DNA from: Isohypsibius dastychi
Lineage: Eukaryota > Tardigrada > Eutardigrada > Parachela > Isohypsibiidae
Reading direction: 5' to 3'
NCBI GenBank assembly: GCA_034696485.1
Contig: JAQIWT010000373.1
Span: 1-21,993 of the forward strand
DNA length: 21,993 nucleotides
Below the pieces are notes generated by a model. The model was not told the DNA's origin. It did no database searches and saw only the letters and a list, made by a program, of their open reading frames with translations. Positions 519-21,993 of this stretch are shown piece by piece (positions within the stretch are counted from its first letter, which is position 1; each line of letters opens with the position of its first letter). The position numbers and the translations under genes were made by a program.

Positions 519-10644
<10,126 letters not shown>

Positions 10645-10853: not shown

Positions 10854-11020
10854 AATTGTAAAATGGTTTGTTGTGGTTTGTGGCTACCACGTGCGTGGGT
10901 CAGTGGCTTGACCCTCAGGCCAGAGCAGCGTTCCACTTTTACCAAACGGTCGTTTTCACACTTTTCTCAAAGACTCAGTCTCTTACAAATGTACTTCCGG
11001 ATACGTGTTTCTATCAAGGA

Positions 11021-11947
11021 ATGCGATTTATTAGGAAGTGGACTGAAATACTCCTCATTACATTTGCATTGACACTTGCGACAATGAGTTTCATCAGCCA
11101 CTTGTCTTCCCCTCCAACCGCATACCTAACACGGATGAACCACACTCGAATGATCATTCCGAACCTAAAATGCCAAAAAACGTCGGAGAAAGCCAGTTTC
11201 ACCATGATTGCCATCATCACAAGTCCTGAGATGTTCGAGCGAAGACGAGCTATCAGGTCGACATGGGCGACTCAAGTGGATGGAAGCTGCAACATGCAGT
11301 ACATGTTTGTGATCGGGTTAACAACAAACCAAACTATTCAAAACAAGATCAACCTCGAATCAGCTATTGCTGGTGATATCCTTCAGTTCTCACAATTCGA
11401 AGACCCATTCAGGTCCTCAAGCATCAAAACACTGTACCTGTTCCAGTGGGTCGTTAAATTTTGCCCAGTTGCGACGTTCCTGGCGAGAATCGACGACGAT
11501 TCTTGGTTGAATGTTGAAATGCTTCATAATTTCCTTGAAAAAGAGAACGATGTGCGGAATGCCGTTGTGGGAAGATGGACTGCTAGATACGGGATAGTCC
11601 CCAGAGACCCATTGGATAAACACTACCTGCCGTTTGAGGAATATGATCTCCCGTATTTTCCGAGTTATATTCATGGGAATGCTATGATACTTCCGACAAG
11701 ATTCCTTGCCAGAATAGTGAAAGCTTCACAAAGAGTGAGGAGAGTATACTTGGATGATTGTTACATTGGGGAACTTGCCAAGTTTGCTCGTTTGAAAATG
11801 CGGTCTTATTCCGAGTTTGAACCTGGACGGAATCGAAGCTATGAGATATGTTGGAAGCGAAGCCGTATGGCAGTGCACCAGCTCAGTCCTGATGATATGT
11901 TTTCCTACTGGCGTGACCTTTGTGCGCCAAATAGCCAAGTCTGCTAA
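11021..11947 (+). CDS. Beta-1,3-galactosyltransferase-like (GT31) type II membrane protein
   Basis: The protein is probably a Golgi glycosyltransferase that moves a sugar (galactose or GlcNAc) from a UDP donor in beta-1,3 linkage. Coding is 308 residues in a single exon. ATG 11021 is the first in-frame ATG of the open stretch and puts a short basic cytoplasmic tail (MRFIRKW) before a membrane anchor at ~8-27, the classic type II layout. GT31 motifs in order: RRRAIRSTW at 74-82, FVIGLTTN at 96-103, AGDILQFSQFEDPF at 117-130, the metal-binding DxD as IDDDSWLN at 157-164, FPSYIHGNAMIL at 213-224 and LDDCYIGELA at 244-253, the usual C-terminal acidic motif. Possible N-glycosylation sites are Asn40, Asn103 and Asn271. 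The acceptor sugar cannot be told. The start lies 376 nt after the NF1 stop, with a CACGTG E-box at 10888-10893 between; an AATATA variant signal (11978-11983) follows the stop. Confidence 0.9.
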   Translation: MRFIRKWTEILLITFALTLATMSFISHLSSPPTAYLTRMNHTRMIIPNLKCQKTSEKASFTMIAIITSPEMFERRRAIRSTWATQVDGSCNMQYMFVIGLTTNQTIQNKINLESAIAGDILQFSQFEDPFRSSSIKTLYLFQWVVKFCPVATFLARIDDDSWLNVEMLHNFLEKENDVRNAVVGRWTARYGIVPRDPLDKHYLPFEEYDLPYFPSYIHGNAMILPTRFLARIVKASQRVRRVYLDDCYIGELAKFARLKMRSYSEFEPGRNRSYEICWKRSRMAVHQLSPDDMFSYWRDLCAPNSQVC

Positions 11948-14469: not shown

Positions 14470-14598
14470 ATGTATGTCATATTTGCTCAGCTTTTGTTCT
14501 ACATCATCGTCCTGGTCGTGGATGATTCCAATGGACTACCAAAGCCTGTCATCAAAGTATCCTCAGGTGGAGCAACGTTCCCAGTCGACATTTACAAA
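14470..14598 (+). CDS. Alternative first exon (1a) of the PstS-domain receptor guanylate cyclase
   Basis: This exon encodes 43 residues. A signal peptide with hydrophobic core FAQLLFYIIVLVV comes first, then the first strand of a PstS-type domain, SSGGATFPVDIYK, whose ATF turn touches phosphate in bacterial PstS. It ends in phase 0 at a strong donor (GTGAGA at 14599). Exon 2 of the cyclase starts at 16214 in phase 0, so joining gives an open 1,027-residue protein. A second exon with the same design sits at 15874-15999. The two are alike in protein but clearly diverged in DNA. Either they are alternative promoters of one gene, or this is the last remnant of a decayed upstream gene copy; I favour the first because no other cyclase fragments lie between them. 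Confidence 0.7.
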
Positions 14599-15873: not shown

Positions 15874-18800
15874 ATGGGTACCAGATATCATTTGGTCTGG
15901 GTTATTATTTTTGTGACGAGATTTATTGCTACTGCGACAAATCGGCAAGGAGTGGTGATCAGTTCTGGAGGAGCTACGTTTTCTATGGATGTTTATAAGG
16001 TAGCAATGGACGCATGCAAAAACATGTTGTTTTTTTGGATTCGGATTCATAAGAGGCTGAGCAGCACGAACACTCAGCATGGAATGATATGATATTTTCT
16101 CTTTCTTTGTAATTAAACAAATATTTTGCAGAACGAACTTTGTCACGAACTAATCAGGACGCTATGTGGTCTAGGACAGAAGTGTCAGTTTAGTGAATTG
16201 TCAATTTTCGCAGATCTGGAGACCAATGTACTTATCCCAACGGACAACATACGCGGACGTTGTCCTGACCTATCAAGCCGTTGGAAGCGGAACCGGGATA
16301 AGAAGGTTCACCGAAAAACTGTACGATTTCGCTGGCTCGGACATCGTCCTGCCCGAATCAAGTTACACCAATGCGTCAGACGATTTCCAAATGTTCCCCA
16401 CAATGGCGGGGTTCGTTTTAAAGTTGAGATTGTTCTTCTCGTTTTCTGACGACAGTTCGTTTTTTAGGCCGATCTCCGTGTCATATAATGTTCCAGATCT
16501 TCCGAAAACGTGCACTGATTACACGATCGCCAATAATCCAAATTGCCTAAATTTGACCAGAGAAGCGCTTGTTGGAATATTCAACGGGACAATCAAAGTG
16601 TGGAATCACCCACTCATAGTTGAATACAACGCCGTTCTTAAAGATGTCAATGCATCAATTACTGTCGTTGTTCGAGCCGACTCATCAGGCACTACGCAGC
16701 TCTTCACCAGCGCCCTGGCCGCCTTTGATCCGGCCTGGAACGCTACATATGGAAGCTTTAGCGAAGGTACGTAAATTGCGAAAGAATCCAGTGGAAAATC
16801 CTACTGGATCACGCTTTCCCCGTCGCATGCCCACCTTCGCTTTGGCCTCGGTAGGCAAAGTGTCTCTTTGCAACGTTCTTTAGACATAAACATTATTCAA
16901 AAAAAAGAAGTTTTTTCAAAAAAAAACATTCGGGGAGGGGGGGGGGATTAAATCGCGTGATTTTCAACAAGAGAGATCAGAGTTTTCTATCCGTAATAAA
17001 AATCGCTTAGAGTAGCGGGAGGTCCCCCCCCCCCCAACCCGGCAAAGATTTCAGTGTGAGTTCAGTGGGTTTATACCTATATAAGTCGGGCGTAAATACG
17101 TCCCTGCGACAATCTCAGGAAATTCCCACAACAGTTTAATTTTTCACATTTCCTCCCCGTGTATTCTCTGGGGATCAGATTCTATATTCTCGTTTTGTTT
17201 TTCAGGATGTGCTGCGAAGGAGAAGCCAATCAAGTGGAATGCAACTATGAATACTCGATGCGGTGCGACTTCATTTGGCGCCGCTGGATTGATACTCACT
17301 AGCCCCTATTCCATTGGGTATTGCGCTACGTCGGAAGCCAGGGACTCTATTCTTCCCGAAACAAGGATACTCAATAGAGCCAATAACTGGGTTAGTCCGA
17401 GTGTCGATGGAACACAAGCTGCGATGGACAGCTTTGCTGGAGCTCTGGGGTCACGCTTGACTGGATCCATCGTTGATGCACCTGCTACACAGGCTTATCC
17501 TATTGCCGGGTATACGTACTTTCTCATCAGGAAGACCACCATGGCAAACTGCACCGTTGCTCAAGAAATACTCAGGTACCTGAACTTTTCGAATTTAAAC
17601 TTCAAAGACAAAAAGAATTACAATGAAAAAATAATAATAATAAGAAAATGAAAATGAATTTAAAATCAGAGTATGATAGTATATTTGTTTTTAGTAGTTT
17701 TTTGAAAATTGAAAACCTAAATAAGTGTTCTGTGGTCTGGTAACTTACTGTCAACTGACACTCAGTTTTGGATTGCGGTTTTTGAAACATGTTTGTCGGA
17801 GCTGCTCGGTAATTAATCAATGATTATTGAGTGTACTCGTTTTTGTTGAAAAACAGTTCGACCCGATATTAATTTTCAATACCAAAAAATTCTGTCTGGA
17901 CTTTTGGAAATTTTGGCAATGGCTGAATAACACGAAACACGGTGCACCACTAGCCTTTCCTGTTACAGATTCTTCACATTTGTTCTCACTGACCAATTGG
18001 CGAAAAGCGTGGTACGGGATTTGGTCAAAGCACCAATCAGCGACCGTGTCTTCTCCTTGATTGACACTCAAGTCTTCTCAAAATTTGAATGCGGAGGAGC
18101 AAGGGTCAAGGAGCTGGTCCGTGTGGCCATCGCCATTGAGACTGGAGCTTACGATCTATGGAAAATTCCTGTGGCTGTTTGTGTGTCGATATTGTTCATC
18201 ATATTGTTGGTTTCGGCGATCGCCTTTGCCTACATTGAATATCTGAAAAATCGAAGCGTTCTTAAAGGGAGCTTCATAATTCAGATCGAAGGAACGGAGG
18301 CTATGAAGCATTCGGTCATCTCTTTCAATTCAAGTGTTAATTCGATGAGTCGATTCGATGCGAATTTCGGATCGAAGAGCATGGTGGTCCGAGTGACTTC
18401 TGGAGAGAAATGCCTGGCCAAACCGCTGTGCAAACATTTCGACGCGGAGACCTTGCAGTGGAATACCAGGAAACTGCTTGTGCAAATGAAACAACAGCTG
18501 CAGCATGCCAATATCGTCAAGGTCATGGGTATTGGGAAACGAGATGCTGATTGGAAACTAGTGACAAGCTGGCCTAAAAAAGGAAGATTACAGGTAAACA
18601 TTTGTCAAAAAATCGAATTTAGCTCACATTGAGTCAAACATACGAGATCCATCAACCACCATCAATTACTGTGGGGGTTTTAACTGAGGGAGGGGGGCAG
18701 ATGATGCTGTAGCTGTGGAGCTCCCGCAAGAAAAGTAAAGTTTCGAAGAAGTTCTCTGAACATTCGGAACCACCCCCCCCCCCCCCCAACATTTGAAAAC

Positions 18801-21064
18801 GCAGAACTGCAAACGTTTGAACACACGTATGTAGTGGATGTAATTCTTTTTTTCATTAGGACGTTATTCACGCTGGAAAGTACCACTTGAACTCCGGGGT
18901 CCGCTACTCAATCGCCAACGACATCGTCGAAGGCATGACCTATCTCCACAAAAATGAAATCGTGCACGGGCAATTGACAACAAACAACTGCTACATTGAC
19001 GGCCGTTGGAATGCTCAAGTTGGCGACTGGGAACAGAACGTTCTACATTGCGCTCAGAAGGTTCATTTCACGGCTTTCGAGCCATTATATCGCAGCGTCT
19101 CCGACACTTACCCAAAAGACCTCGACGGTCTGAATGAATATTGTCGACTTCTCTACTCGAGTCCGTCAGAAATTCTCGAACAAGATGCCAAAAAGCTCTT
19201 TCTCGTTACAAGTCCGACCAAGGCCTCGGATGTTTACAGTTTCGCCATTACAATCTACGAAGTGTTCAGCAACATGATGCCATTTGAAAACCTTGCCAAA
19301 GAGGAGGACTCCAAATGGAGTCCATTGAAGATTCTAGTTCTTATCAAAGCTATTGATACGCGACCAATCATTCCGGATGACATGCGTATGGAATTCGCAC
19401 ACATTGTTCAGCTAATCGAGAAATGCTGGGATCCTGAAGAGAACAAGCGACCGACATTTATTCAAATTGGAAAAATGCTGAGAGCCGCGAATCCGAAGGG
19501 GGAAAGTGTGGTTGATACGATGATGCAGGCTGTTGAGAATTACGCGCTGAGTTTGGAAGAGAAGGTCGTGGAAAGGACGACCGAAATGGAGAAGGTTACT
19601 CAGAATTTGAAAACTTTACTTCATAATATGCTGCCCCCAAGTATCGCTGATAAGCTTTCGAGAGGGGAGCAAGTTGAGCCGGAGTTTTATGATTCGGTGA
19701 CCATTTGCTTTACGGACATTGTTGGGTTCACCTCGATCGCGGCCGCGTCGCTGCCGATCCAGATTGTCAACCTGCTCAACGATCTTTATATAAGTGAGTG
19801 ATTCGATTTTGAGGCCTGCTGATGTTGTTCTGTTAAGATTGTTGTTGTTGGATTGCAGCATTTGATTCGGTGATCAATAATCACGATGTTTATAAAGTGG
19901 AGACTATTGGTGATTCGTACATGTGTATATCGGGCTTACCCCGAAGAAATGGATTGGCACATGCAGCAGAAATTGGAACGATGGCATTGGATATGCTGAG
20001 TGTCGTTTCAACGATCCCGATTCGTCACATGCCTGGGAGTGTCTTGAGAGTGCGAGCGGGCGCCCATAGTGGGAGTGTCATGGCCGGTAAGCTTGGTTCT
20101 TCGTATGCTGGTCAGCTCATGTTGACCAGAATGTTCACAACTTTTCATCTTTTTTTAATGATAAAAGCAACTTGGGTGCGCAACAGACTTGGTAACGCTC
20201 AAAATAAAGACGTTGTTTTTCAAAGCAAACAGATTTTTCGGGCAGATCTCATGGGATTTCGGAGGTCCAGTTATGAAATCTACCAAACCATAACCGAAGA
20301 TCAAAAACGAATTGAAAAATTTATGCGATATTTTTCAAAAACGAGATTTCAGGCCATGTAGATTGTCAAAGAGATTTCAGGCCATGTAGATTGTCAAAAC
20401 TTGCTCTGTGAAACTCTCGCTCATTTCCGTATCAGTATCGGCACTTTGAAAACTTGGCCTGAACCAGCTCTAAATAGCGCAGCTTGCGCCCCCCCCCCCT
20501 ATAATTTACTTACAATTTTATTAGATGATGGAAACCTGAGTGGAAACTCATTGGAAACTCAGAAAGTTCTAGTAATTTGAACCTAATGTGTTGACTGTCC
20601 GAGTCTAGGTGTTGTGGGAATCAAGATGCCTCGTTACTGCCTTTTTGGTGATACAGGTACAAAGTGGTCGTGATCAATGAATTTGGATAATGTCTAATTC
20701 TGTGTTGCCTTTCAGTCAACACTGCTGCGAGAATGGAGTCGTCTTCCTTACCAATGCGAATTCAGATCAGCGAGGACACAAAGAACATTCTGGAAACTTT
20801 CAAAGTGTATGAAATTCACTTGAGGGGTGTGCGAGATATCAAGGTACGAATGATGGAAATACAACCAGAATTCAGTCTATGGCAAATTGTTTGGAAATGG
20901 CATGGTTTGGCGACAAAGTATGACAGTTTGTTTTGCAGGGAAAAGGCAATCTGACGACATATTGGTTGACGGGGAAAAGTGGTTTTTCTAAAGATCTCCC
21001 TGTGTTCGATCCAGCTCAAGACGATGAACTTTTATTGATGCTCGATCAATCGCAAATCAAATAA
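15874..21064 (+). CDS. Receptor guanylate cyclase with PstS-type phosphate-binding ectodomain
   Basis: The gene product should make cGMP in response to a ligand outside the cell. Exons as read: 15874-15999 (1b), 16214-16410, 16468-16766, 17206-17575, 17969-18593, 18860-19793, 19859-20086, 20609-20656, 20716-20843, 20939-21064. They join in one open frame: 1,026 residues with exon 1b, 1,027 with exon 1a at 14470-14598. Order of parts (1a numbering): signal peptide ~1-20, PstS-type domain ~28-375, one membrane helix ~399-421, kinase-homology domain ~435-740, linker helix, cyclase domain ~820-1005. Exon phases carry the frame from ectodomain through membrane helix to cyclase, so this is one protein, not two neighbouring genes. 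Usual animal receptor cyclases have an ANF-receptor (PBP type I) ectodomain; this type II binding-protein fold is different. I do not recall a described animal cyclase of this form. Introns are longer than in NF1 and carry G/C homopolymers. Confidence 0.9.
16932..17035. repeat. Complementary G-run and C-run within one intron
   Basis: Inside the 439-nt intron 16767-17205, a G tract (GGGGA then ten G, 16932-16946) is followed ~80 nt later by twelve C (17024-17035). The two could pair in the transcript. The rest of this intron holds a 7-bp hairpin ATCCAGT/ACTGGAT (16786-16809) and nothing coding. Confidence 0.8.
17576..17968 (+). other. 393-nt intron before the transmembrane exon
   Basis: Donor GTACCT at 17576 splits an arginine codon (AG then A), and the acceptor CCTGTTACAG ends at 17968. 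The intron is AT-rich with a short ATA/TAA repeat near 17630-17643. Frames on both strands near 17817-18071 are low in similarity to anything known and overlap the next exon, so they are treated as chance. Confidence 0.7.
18688..18787. repeat. Second complementary G-run and C-run within an intron
   Basis: In the 266-nt intron 18594-18859, GGGAGGGGGG (18688-18697) is followed by a run of fifteen C (18773-18787), in the same G-then-C order as the pair at 16932-17035. A lone run of eleven C occurs in a later intron at 20489-20499. Confidence 0.8.
20087..20608 (+). other. 522-nt intron inside the cyclase catalytic domain
   Basis: Donor GTAAGC at 20087 and acceptor GTCTAG ending at 20608 flank it. 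Reading straight through the donor stays open for 91 codons, to a TAG at 20359-20361. A retained intron or early polyadenylation would therefore give a cyclase that lacks Cys938 and the catalytic Asn/Arg. It also holds a 28-bp tandem duplication (20343-20398) and a C run (20489-20499). Confidence 0.7.
20343..20398. repeat. Perfect 28-bp tandem duplication
   Basis: The unit starts GAGATTTCAGGCCATG and occurs twice head to tail without mismatch (20343-20370 and 20371-20398). Each copy contains TTTCAG, which resembles a splice acceptor. The first copy also holds the TAG that closes the read-through frame. Confidence 0.95.
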
Positions 21065-21274: not shown

Positions 21275-21993
21275 CAGGGGCGGGGCATTTATTCGAGACC
21301 ACTTTGTTTGCGCGGGCCTGCTTTGTCACTTGAATTTTTCTCCCCAGTTTCCAAAACAGTTTCATATTTATAAGAGCCCATTGTATTCAGAAAATTTTGG
21401 TTGGGATTTGTTCGCTGTGAGATGGGACGAAAACTTGATCCCGAAGTGAAGGGATCCATCATTGCCCTTCATGGGATAGGATATTCTCAGCGAAAAATTG
21501 TCAAGGCGCTCAAGGAGCAGAATGTTGTTGTTAGTAAAACAGCTGTTTGCCATGCTATCCGGGAAAAAAATCTGGAGGAGATCGGAGCTGTTGATGGAGA
21601 AAAAAAAGCGTGGAACCGAGGACTACCAAAAAAGCGTACCAAGAACCTGATCAAGAAAGTGAAGAAGGATTCGTCAGGCCCTTCTCCCCTCACCCATCTT
21701 CAGATGGCAAAAAAGTACGGAGTGTCCAAGCGTACTATTGGCAGAATTATTCACAGCAATCTGGAAGGCAAGTTGAGGAAAAAGCATCGTGTCCATGCTC
21801 TGTCGAATAAACAGATCGCTCAACGACTAGAACGGGGTCCTCGCTTCCTTCTCTACCTAGAAGGCAATTTGTGGAAAAAGATCTTGACAGTGGATGAAGC
21901 ATGGGTGTATCTTACTAATGTTAACGGAATTCGTCGGATTTATTACCAGTTCAAAGGAGATCGGACGGAAGAAAGTTGGACGAAATACTGGAA
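21275..21993 (+). mobile_element. Tc1/mariner-type DNA transposon, 5' part, cut by window end
   Basis: A transposase frame starts at 21422. Upstream, a TA (21273-21274) is followed by CAGGGGCGGGGCATTTATTC, which could be the left terminal inverted repeat. The right end is outside the window, so the left boundary is only a proposal. TTTATAAG at ~21366 could be the element's own promoter box. The MITE at 12747-13180 has different ends and is not a deletion copy of this element. Confidence 0.6.
21422..21993 (+). CDS. Tc1/mariner superfamily transposase, 3' partial
   Basis: The enzyme binds the element's ends and cuts and pastes it at TA sites. From ATG 21422 the frame is open for 190 codons to the window edge, without stop or frameshift. 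Two helix-turn-helix segments form the expected paired DNA-binding region: SIIALHGIGYSQRKIVKALK (~13-32) and QMAKKYGVSKRTIGRIIHS (~99-117). KKHRVHALSNKQIAQRLERG is the usual linker to the catalytic domain. LTVDEAW (~155-161) contains the first catalytic aspartate of the DDE/D triad at residue 158; the remaining two acids would lie beyond the window. The subfamily (DD34D, DD34E, DD37 and so on) cannot be decided without the missing end. The intact frame suggests a fairly young copy. Confidence 0.88.
   Translation, partial: MGRKLDPEVKGSIIALHGIGYSQRKIVKALKEQNVVVSKTAVCHAIREKNLEEIGAVDGEKKAWNRGLPKKRTKNLIKKVKKDSSGPSPLTHLQMAKKYGVSKRTIGRIIHSNLEGKLRKKHRVHALSNKQIAQRLERGPRFLLYLEGNLWKKILTVDEAWVYLTNVNGIRRIYYQFKGDRTEESWTKYW

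Follow-up and report, generated by a model that had tools for sequence, protein, structure and literature searches.

Receptor guanylate cyclases, among them GC-A/NPR1, GC-C and the GCY receptors of Caenorhabditis elegans, combine a single membrane helix with a pseudokinase, a linker and a cyclase domain, and their usual, though not strictly defining, ectodomain is ANF_receptor. In bacteria, phosphate is bound by PstS, a protein of the periplasmic binding protein (PBP) type II fold whose two lobes close on the ligand. As reported in PMC5225109, some C. elegans receptor cyclases act as direct ion sensors, and a fungal class C G-protein-coupled receptor (GPCR), SPPG_06488, with a PBP_like_2 domain is reported in PMC3251606. 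We analysed a stretch of 21,993 nucleotides from the tardigrade Isohypsibius dastychi (contig JAQIWT010000373.1), referred to as the window, which contains on its plus strand (15874-21064) a gene of 10 exons coding for a receptor guanylate cyclase of 1026 amino acids. The protein shares its membrane helix, pseudokinase, linker and cyclase with GC-A, GC-C and the GCY receptors; unlike them, it carries a PstS (PBP type II) ectodomain instead of ANF_receptor. It resembles the PstS class C GPCRs in placing a PstS ectodomain on a signalling receptor, while those proteins use a seven-helix G-protein output and the window protein a cyclase. The receptor type is known, the class of ectodomain is new, and the proposed ligand can be tested.

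All introns of the gene follow the GT-AG rule with consistent phases (Table 1), and the spliced frame has no internal stop. A sequence-only reading of the window had joined a signal peptide, a PstS-like domain, one membrane helix, a pseudokinase and a cyclase in a single spliced frame. The 10-exon model recovered this order, with the signal-peptide-like start called by eye; the junctions 17575/17969 and 18593/18860 proposed earlier are those of the model, and the 984 residues regarded as the common part correspond to exons 2-10, exon 1 contributing 42 of the 1026 residues. The three Pfam families expected from that reading were all matched on the spliced protein: PBP_like_2 at residues 52-339 (E 1.9e-23, 84 bits with a cut-off of 27), PK_Tyr_Ser-Thr at residues 503-745 (E 2.8e-25) and Guanylate_cyc at residues 812-996 (E 1.9e-61). 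Neither ANF_receptor (PF01094), whose place is taken by PBP_like_2, nor the seven-helix class C GPCR domain (PF00003) was matched in the spliced protein by Pfam at E<=0.001. In the 30.4-Mb assembly, PBP_like_2 had one match at E<=0.001, the window gene, as compared with 40 for ANF_receptor.

The PstS assignment, on which the earlier reading depended, was recovered by Pfam, by the solved-structure search and by the NCBIfam PstS model TIGR00975. When the sequence of the part ahead of the membrane was compared with solved structures, the matches at E<=0.001 comprised 20 distinct sequences. Each of them is named PstS or phosphate-binding protein; the best was PstS of Yersinia (2z22, 5.7e-25), and PstS of Escherichia coli matched at 1.9e-22. 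Models of two relatives predict the PstS fold followed by a helix ahead of the membrane. The likeness to bacterial PstS extends to the whole fold, as modelled for relatives, and to nearly all phosphate contacts; the differences are the tethering to a membrane receptor, a Ser in place of Asn177 and, in the two trees described below, a branch apart from the bacterial rows. DING proteins, which are PstS-like and include a human plasma preparation, belong to the same PstS superfamily as the window domain; a DING-type instead of a PstS-type ectodomain was rejected on the grounds of sequence and of the fold predicted for the relative P0007. For the inner part of the protein, GC-A was the nearest solved relative (1.2e-106), as it was for P0007 in Foldseek (2.6e-35). 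The single membrane helix lies at approximately residues 397-420, with hydropathy up to 3.06 in segments starting at 391-406; just three other segments exceeded 1.6 (1.63-1.66), all inside the cyclase domain. No transporter domain was found in the seven open reading frames of the window that were scanned, a search that did not extend to PstA, PstB and PstC in the assembly.

An architecture of this kind could arise if two adjoining genes were wrongly joined in the gene model, and merged models do occur in tardigrade annotation. The database model of P0018 from Hypsibius exemplaris fuses a PstS receptor cyclase to a glycosylphosphatidylinositol (GPI) ethanolamine phosphate transferase, which is probably an annotation error. 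However, one exon of the window gene, 17969-18593, holds in a single open frame the end of the PBP_like_2 match (base 17993), the membrane helix and the start of the pseudokinase match (18483), so that the link between PstS and pseudokinase is independent of splicing, and 27 relatives combine the same parts in one polypeptide. With both sides of the junction on one exon, the misjoining of two genes was rejected, and we give it practically no credence.

To describe the binding pocket, we compared the window protein with the phosphate contacts of E. coli PstS, which we take to be Thr10, Phe11, Ser38, Asp56, Arg135, Ser139, Gly140 and Thr141. The window residues at these places (Thr35, Phe36, Ser67, Asp85, Arg177, Ser181, Gly182 and Thr183) were identical in eight of eight. 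Among the 28 family members (the window protein and 27 database proteins), 17 could be scored at all eight places, ten of the remaining 11 being without the N-terminal part, and 14 of the 17 kept every contact when Thr/Ser exchanges and one backbone-contact Phe-to-Ile exchange (P0044) were allowed. P0001 was left out of this count because its start has letters that do not align; scored as a miss, it would make the count 14/18. The set Arg135-Ser139-Gly140-Thr/Ser141 was present in 25/28 members.

The cyclase domain retained all six residues checked: D825 and D869, presumably the metal aspartates, E865 and C937, which we assume to set GTP specificity, and N944 and R948, which we take to be catalytic. 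Within the tardigrade group, formed by the window protein and five database proteins, the six residues were complete in 5/5 scorable members (the model of P0002 lacks part of the domain and was not scorable). Outside it, none of the 20 scorable proteins, out of 22, had all six, and both metal aspartates were found in just the two Haliotis proteins. The pocket of these same 22 was kept in 13/13 scorable at the eight places, with the Thr/Ser and Phe-to-Ile exchanges allowed. The non-tardigrade members look like phosphate-binding receptors with a dead kinase and a dead cyclase. This split between complete and degenerate cyclases, with the pocket kept, was not foreseen in the sequence-only reading.

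The kinase-homology domain lacks the catalytic Asp of HRD (HGQL, with Gln at residue 577), and at the place of DFG the family has DWE in 28/28 members. At this place GC-A, unlike the window protein, has DYG and GC-C has DFG; the insect protein P0019 has DYG, and DFG also occurs in three ordinary receptor cyclases encoded in the assembly. Neither DFG nor DWE is present in two other pieces of the assembly (L108 and L109), and the degenerate paralogue L107 reads SDWC. The junction between the PstS domain and the membrane contained five residues that were invariant in a ten-member alignment (Cys372, Val377, Glu388, Trp395 and Pro398).

We also considered that the gene might be out of use, or that its ectodomain might be merely structural. 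In favour of this, the gene has two candidate first exons and the paralogue on contig C142 has degenerate parts. Against it, ten exons are joined in a frame free of stops, a paralogue on contig C1545 differs from the window gene by a non-synonymous divergence (dN) of 0.25 (the synonymous divergence, dS, was not computable), and ligand-binding and catalytic residues are both retained. We regard disuse or a merely structural ectodomain as very unlikely.

In ordinary receptor cyclases, the ligand is thought to rotate the membrane helices within a dimer, freeing the cyclase from the hold of the pseudokinase (PMC5225109). Joining this model to the lobe closure of PstS gives a receptor that would convert outside phosphate to cyclic GMP (cGMP). 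Outside the cell, the two PstS lobes would close around inorganic phosphate or an oxyanion that closely resembles it, and their closure would shift the short helix leading into the membrane helix; within a dimer, the pseudokinase and the coiled linker would relay this shift, and the paired cyclase domains would then produce cGMP. Here we infer the surface location, the dimer, phosphate as the ligand, its affinity and the direction of regulation. Taken together, the pocket and cyclase residues suggest that the window gene probably encodes a single-pass receptor guanylate cyclase with one complete PstS-type ectodomain that turns extracellular phosphate, or a very similar oxyanion, into cGMP. The sequence-only reading had proposed with caution that phosphate or a similar oxyanion may be converted into cGMP, a proposal supported by the kept pocket and the complete set of cyclase residues. 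With a recognisable phosphate pocket and a cGMP-making enzyme in the same molecule, direct sensing of extracellular phosphate by an animal cell becomes testable with one protein.

Several observations weigh against phosphate-dependent cGMP production. The match to TIGR00975 (E 5.6e-53) reached 180.1 bits, below the 205-bit cut-off; among seven proteins scored with this model, P0007 (208.5) and P0005 (208.3) were above the cut-off and the other five below. In PMC5439949, the contacts of Xanthomonas PhoX are given as Ser34, Ser62, Asp80, Arg159, Gly164, Thr165 and Asn201. This list adds one contact place, aligned to E. coli Asn177, where the window protein has Ser230; across the family (n=28), the place is occupied by Asn in 11 members, Ser/Thr in 16 and Gly in 1. 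Furthermore, the non-tardigrade relatives keep the pocket without the cyclase residues, so that conservation of the pocket is independent of cGMP output. Ligands can also drift, since three of the four Hypsibius paralogues (P0002, P0003 and P0018, the only losers among the fully scored members) have lost several contacts each. Finally, bacterial PstS binds phosphate with micromolar or tighter affinity; a receptor with a PstS-like affinity would be saturated in body fluid and would need to be exposed to a fluid poor in phosphate, for example fresh water or the contents of the gut.

The same facts bear on the possibility that the architecture is as described and the protein is a chemoreceptor for something other than free phosphate, be it a different oxyanion, an organophosphate or a small molecule of an unrelated kind. 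The Ser at the Asn177 place and the loss of the pocket in the three Hypsibius proteins and in the degenerate C142 paralogue speak for such a ligand; the identity of the window protein at all eight contacts, and their retention in 14 of the 17 scored members, speak against it. We consider a non-phosphate ligand unlikely, although it is the most serious of the alternatives.

To determine the distribution of the architecture, three protein searches were performed, which returned 17, 29 and 23 matches, including some proteins that are not relatives of this type. Since each search scored the 8000 candidates sharing most words, the distribution is a lower bound. At least 27 database proteins combine PstS with the pseudokinase, and 25 of the 27 also have the Pfam cyclase domain (the exceptions being P0047 and P0056). 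Those with a species name come from the tardigrades Hypsibius exemplaris (four genes) and Paramacrobiotus metropolitanus, the nemerteans Tubulanus polymorphus and Lineus longissimus, and the molluscs Haliotis (two proteins), Patella vulgata, Ylistrum balloti, Pecten maximus, Argopecten irradians, Liolophura sinensis, Saccostrea cucullata, Elysia crispata, Solemya velum, Nucella lapillus and Mizuhopecten yessoensis, the nearest named proteins to the window protein being tardigrade. The family thus covers at least three phyla and is otherwise named in public annotation, where its members appear as atrial natriuretic peptide receptor, retinal guanylyl cyclase, speract receptor and guanylate cyclase 2G, among other names. 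The two halves of the receptor decay independently, the pocket being lost and the cyclase kept in Hypsibius P0003 and P0018, and the cyclase lost and the pocket kept in molluscs and nemerteans.

The earlier reading knew of no description of such a receptor. No description of a PstS-type receptor cyclase was found in the open-access literature, of which part of the matching papers was covered for most topics; the architecture itself, however, proved to be widespread in protostome databases under other names. A study of the oyster kinome lists 23 receptor cyclases, of which eight are specific to the oyster, and the terms PBP, periplasmic and phosphate-binding are absent from its main text (PMC4883820).

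Tardigrade genomes are known for disputed claims of gene transfer, and the PstS part could be a recent, tardigrade-specific gain from bacteria or a bacterial contamination. A scan of prokaryote genomes matched at least 596 stretches, at least 582 of them encoding relatives, and the best 80 of these at least 582 reached at most 34% identity to the window protein in the best segment. In the multiple alignment, a fungal GPCR ectodomain was 38% and a nemertean ectodomain 37% identical to it. A quick tree of 73 rows included, from the 80 prokaryote loci, the 45 with the best scores, one of which is archaeal; from the 28-member family it took 15 ectodomains, that of P0004 being partial, together with 11 further eukaryotes. 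It separated eukaryotes from prokaryotes at 100, grouped the metazoa at just 83 and did not resolve the placement of the fungal pair. A careful tree of 46 rows, made from this set after the removal of P0018, P0047, P0012, P0014, P0025, P0028, P0016 and 20 prokaryote rows, placed the 13 metazoan ectodomains in one clade (98/89) with fungal P0010 and P0020 as sister (95/91), and the 26 bacterial rows together on one side (100/99). When the tardigrades were constrained to group with the bacteria, the best tree was 19.9 log units worse, with an approximately unbiased (AU) test p of 0.074, which is not a formal rejection.

Two results are in line with a recent transfer or contamination: the 20 matches among solved structures are without exception phosphate-binding proteins of bacterial type, and the AU test alone does not exclude a clade of tardigrades and bacteria. 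Against this stand the introns inside the PstS domain, the molluscs and nemerteans with the same architecture and the trees, on which grounds we judged such an origin highly improbable. In a tree of the pseudokinase, the PstS cyclases were separated from four ordinary cyclases at 100/99; this tree omits the ordinary L108 and L109 and the PstS cyclases P0002, P0047, P0053, P0056 and L115. Support fell to 76/54 in a tree of 26 rows that included the two long partial ordinary sequences and the five further family rows; L107 and L114 are in neither tree. The trees and the common DWE motif favour a single old origin over a recent bacterial transfer, and the simplest reading would be one fusion before the tardigrade, nemertean and mollusc lineages split. 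The best explanation of the comparisons appears to be an old receptor type, at least protostome-wide, in which the tardigrade group has retained the cyclase residues and carries the gene in several copies. More broadly, at even chances in our estimate, the family may be an ancient animal class of dedicated extracellular phosphate receptor whose PstS ectodomain has its nearest kin in those of the fungal class C GPCRs and whose output was swapped by lineage (GPCR in fungi, guanylate cyclase in animals), with a cyclase that stayed active in tardigrades and, in molluscs and nemerteans, decayed to a pseudo-enzyme beside a pocket that was kept.

The coordinates of the gene are given in Table 1. The intron at 16411-16467 is frame-neutral, so that its retention in the RNA would add 19 residues, which are absent from the aligned relatives. 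Candidate exon 1a carries the same phosphate-loop strand as exon 1b (SSGGATFPVDIYK), and over the last 17 codons the two agree in 2 codons, differ synonymously in 8 and non-synonymously in 7, with the residues SSGGATF unchanged. In segments of 19 residues, hydropathy reached 1.6 in exon 1a and in no segment of exon 1b. Exon 1a might serve as an alternative start or be left over from a tandem copy.

Table 1. Positions in the window of the exons and domains of the PstS-type receptor cyclase gene
Feature	Position	Strand	Content
Exon 1a (candidate alternative first exon)	14470..14598	+	43 residues, hydrophobic N-terminus and SSGGATFPVDIYK; donor GTGAGA; phase same as 1b
Exon 1 (1b)	15874..15999	+	Signal-peptide-like N-terminus (by eye); first PstS strand; contacts Thr35, Phe36
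Exon 2	16214..16410	+	PstS domain; contacts Ser67, Asp85
Intron, 57 bp, GT-AG, frame-neutral	16411..16467	+	No insertion here in aligned relatives
Exon 3	16468..16766	+	PstS domain; contacts Arg177, Ser181, Gly182, Thr183
Exon 4	17206..17575	+	PstS domain; Ser230 where E. coli has Asn177
Exon 5	17969..18593	+	PstS end, membrane helix (~18165-18239), start of kinase-homology domain
Exon 6	18860..19793	+	Kinase-homology domain (HGQL for HRDL, DWE for DFG), linker, cyclase start with Asp825
Exon 7	19859..20086	+	Cyclase; Glu865, Asp869
Exon 8	20609..20656	+	Cyclase; Cys937
Exon 9	20716..20843	+	Cyclase; Asn944, Arg948
Exon 10	20939..21064	+	End of cyclase, C-terminus, stop codon
PBP_like_2 (PstS-type) domain, Pfam match spanning introns	16241..17993	+	
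Guanylate_cyc domain, Pfam match spanning introns	19676..20971	+	

The same assembly holds two related sequences. On the minus strand of contig C142, L107 and L117 make up another receptor with this layout. Its PstS-like ectodomain is degenerate (18.8 and 19.3 bits with the family profile, in two pieces) and has lost the phosphate Arg and the SGT loop; in its inner part, the pseudokinase reads SDW and the cyclase is degenerate. On contig C1545 (bases 197-1759), L115 is the paralogue mentioned above, 53-78% identical to the window protein in three segments from residue 564 on; its ectodomain is absent from this contig because the contig start cuts the gene off.

PstS ectodomains were also found on other proteins. 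The class C GPCRs that carry one are P0010 and P0020 (fungi), P0011 (Plasmodiophora), P0022, P0023 and P0025. Among protists, three EukProt entries (P0014, P0015 and P0017, presumably Euglena from their names), P0021 (Palpitomonas) and P0012, the latter with a cyclase, have it on membrane proteins. P0016 (JGI source) has it on a Ser/Thr kinase. These cases suggest that the domain was used repeatedly as a sensor. P0028 (source lgn) combines SPX, a sulfate-permease family transporter, PstS with the phosphate contacts kept and STAS in one protein; from these domains, it is possibly a phosphate transporter carrying its own sensor.

In the window (21,993 nucleotides), no tRNA and no Rfam match at gathering score was found. 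An open frame at 21374-21991, which extends past the window end, had no Pfam match and resembles, in our assessment, a mariner/Tc1-type transposase. The open frame 10862-11947 belongs to the galactosyltransferase family (Galactosyl_T, E 2e-32), and a neurofibromin-like gene on the plus strand, from approximately 4387 to 7409 and beyond, has matches to RasGAP, CRAL_TRIO_2 and PH_NF1.

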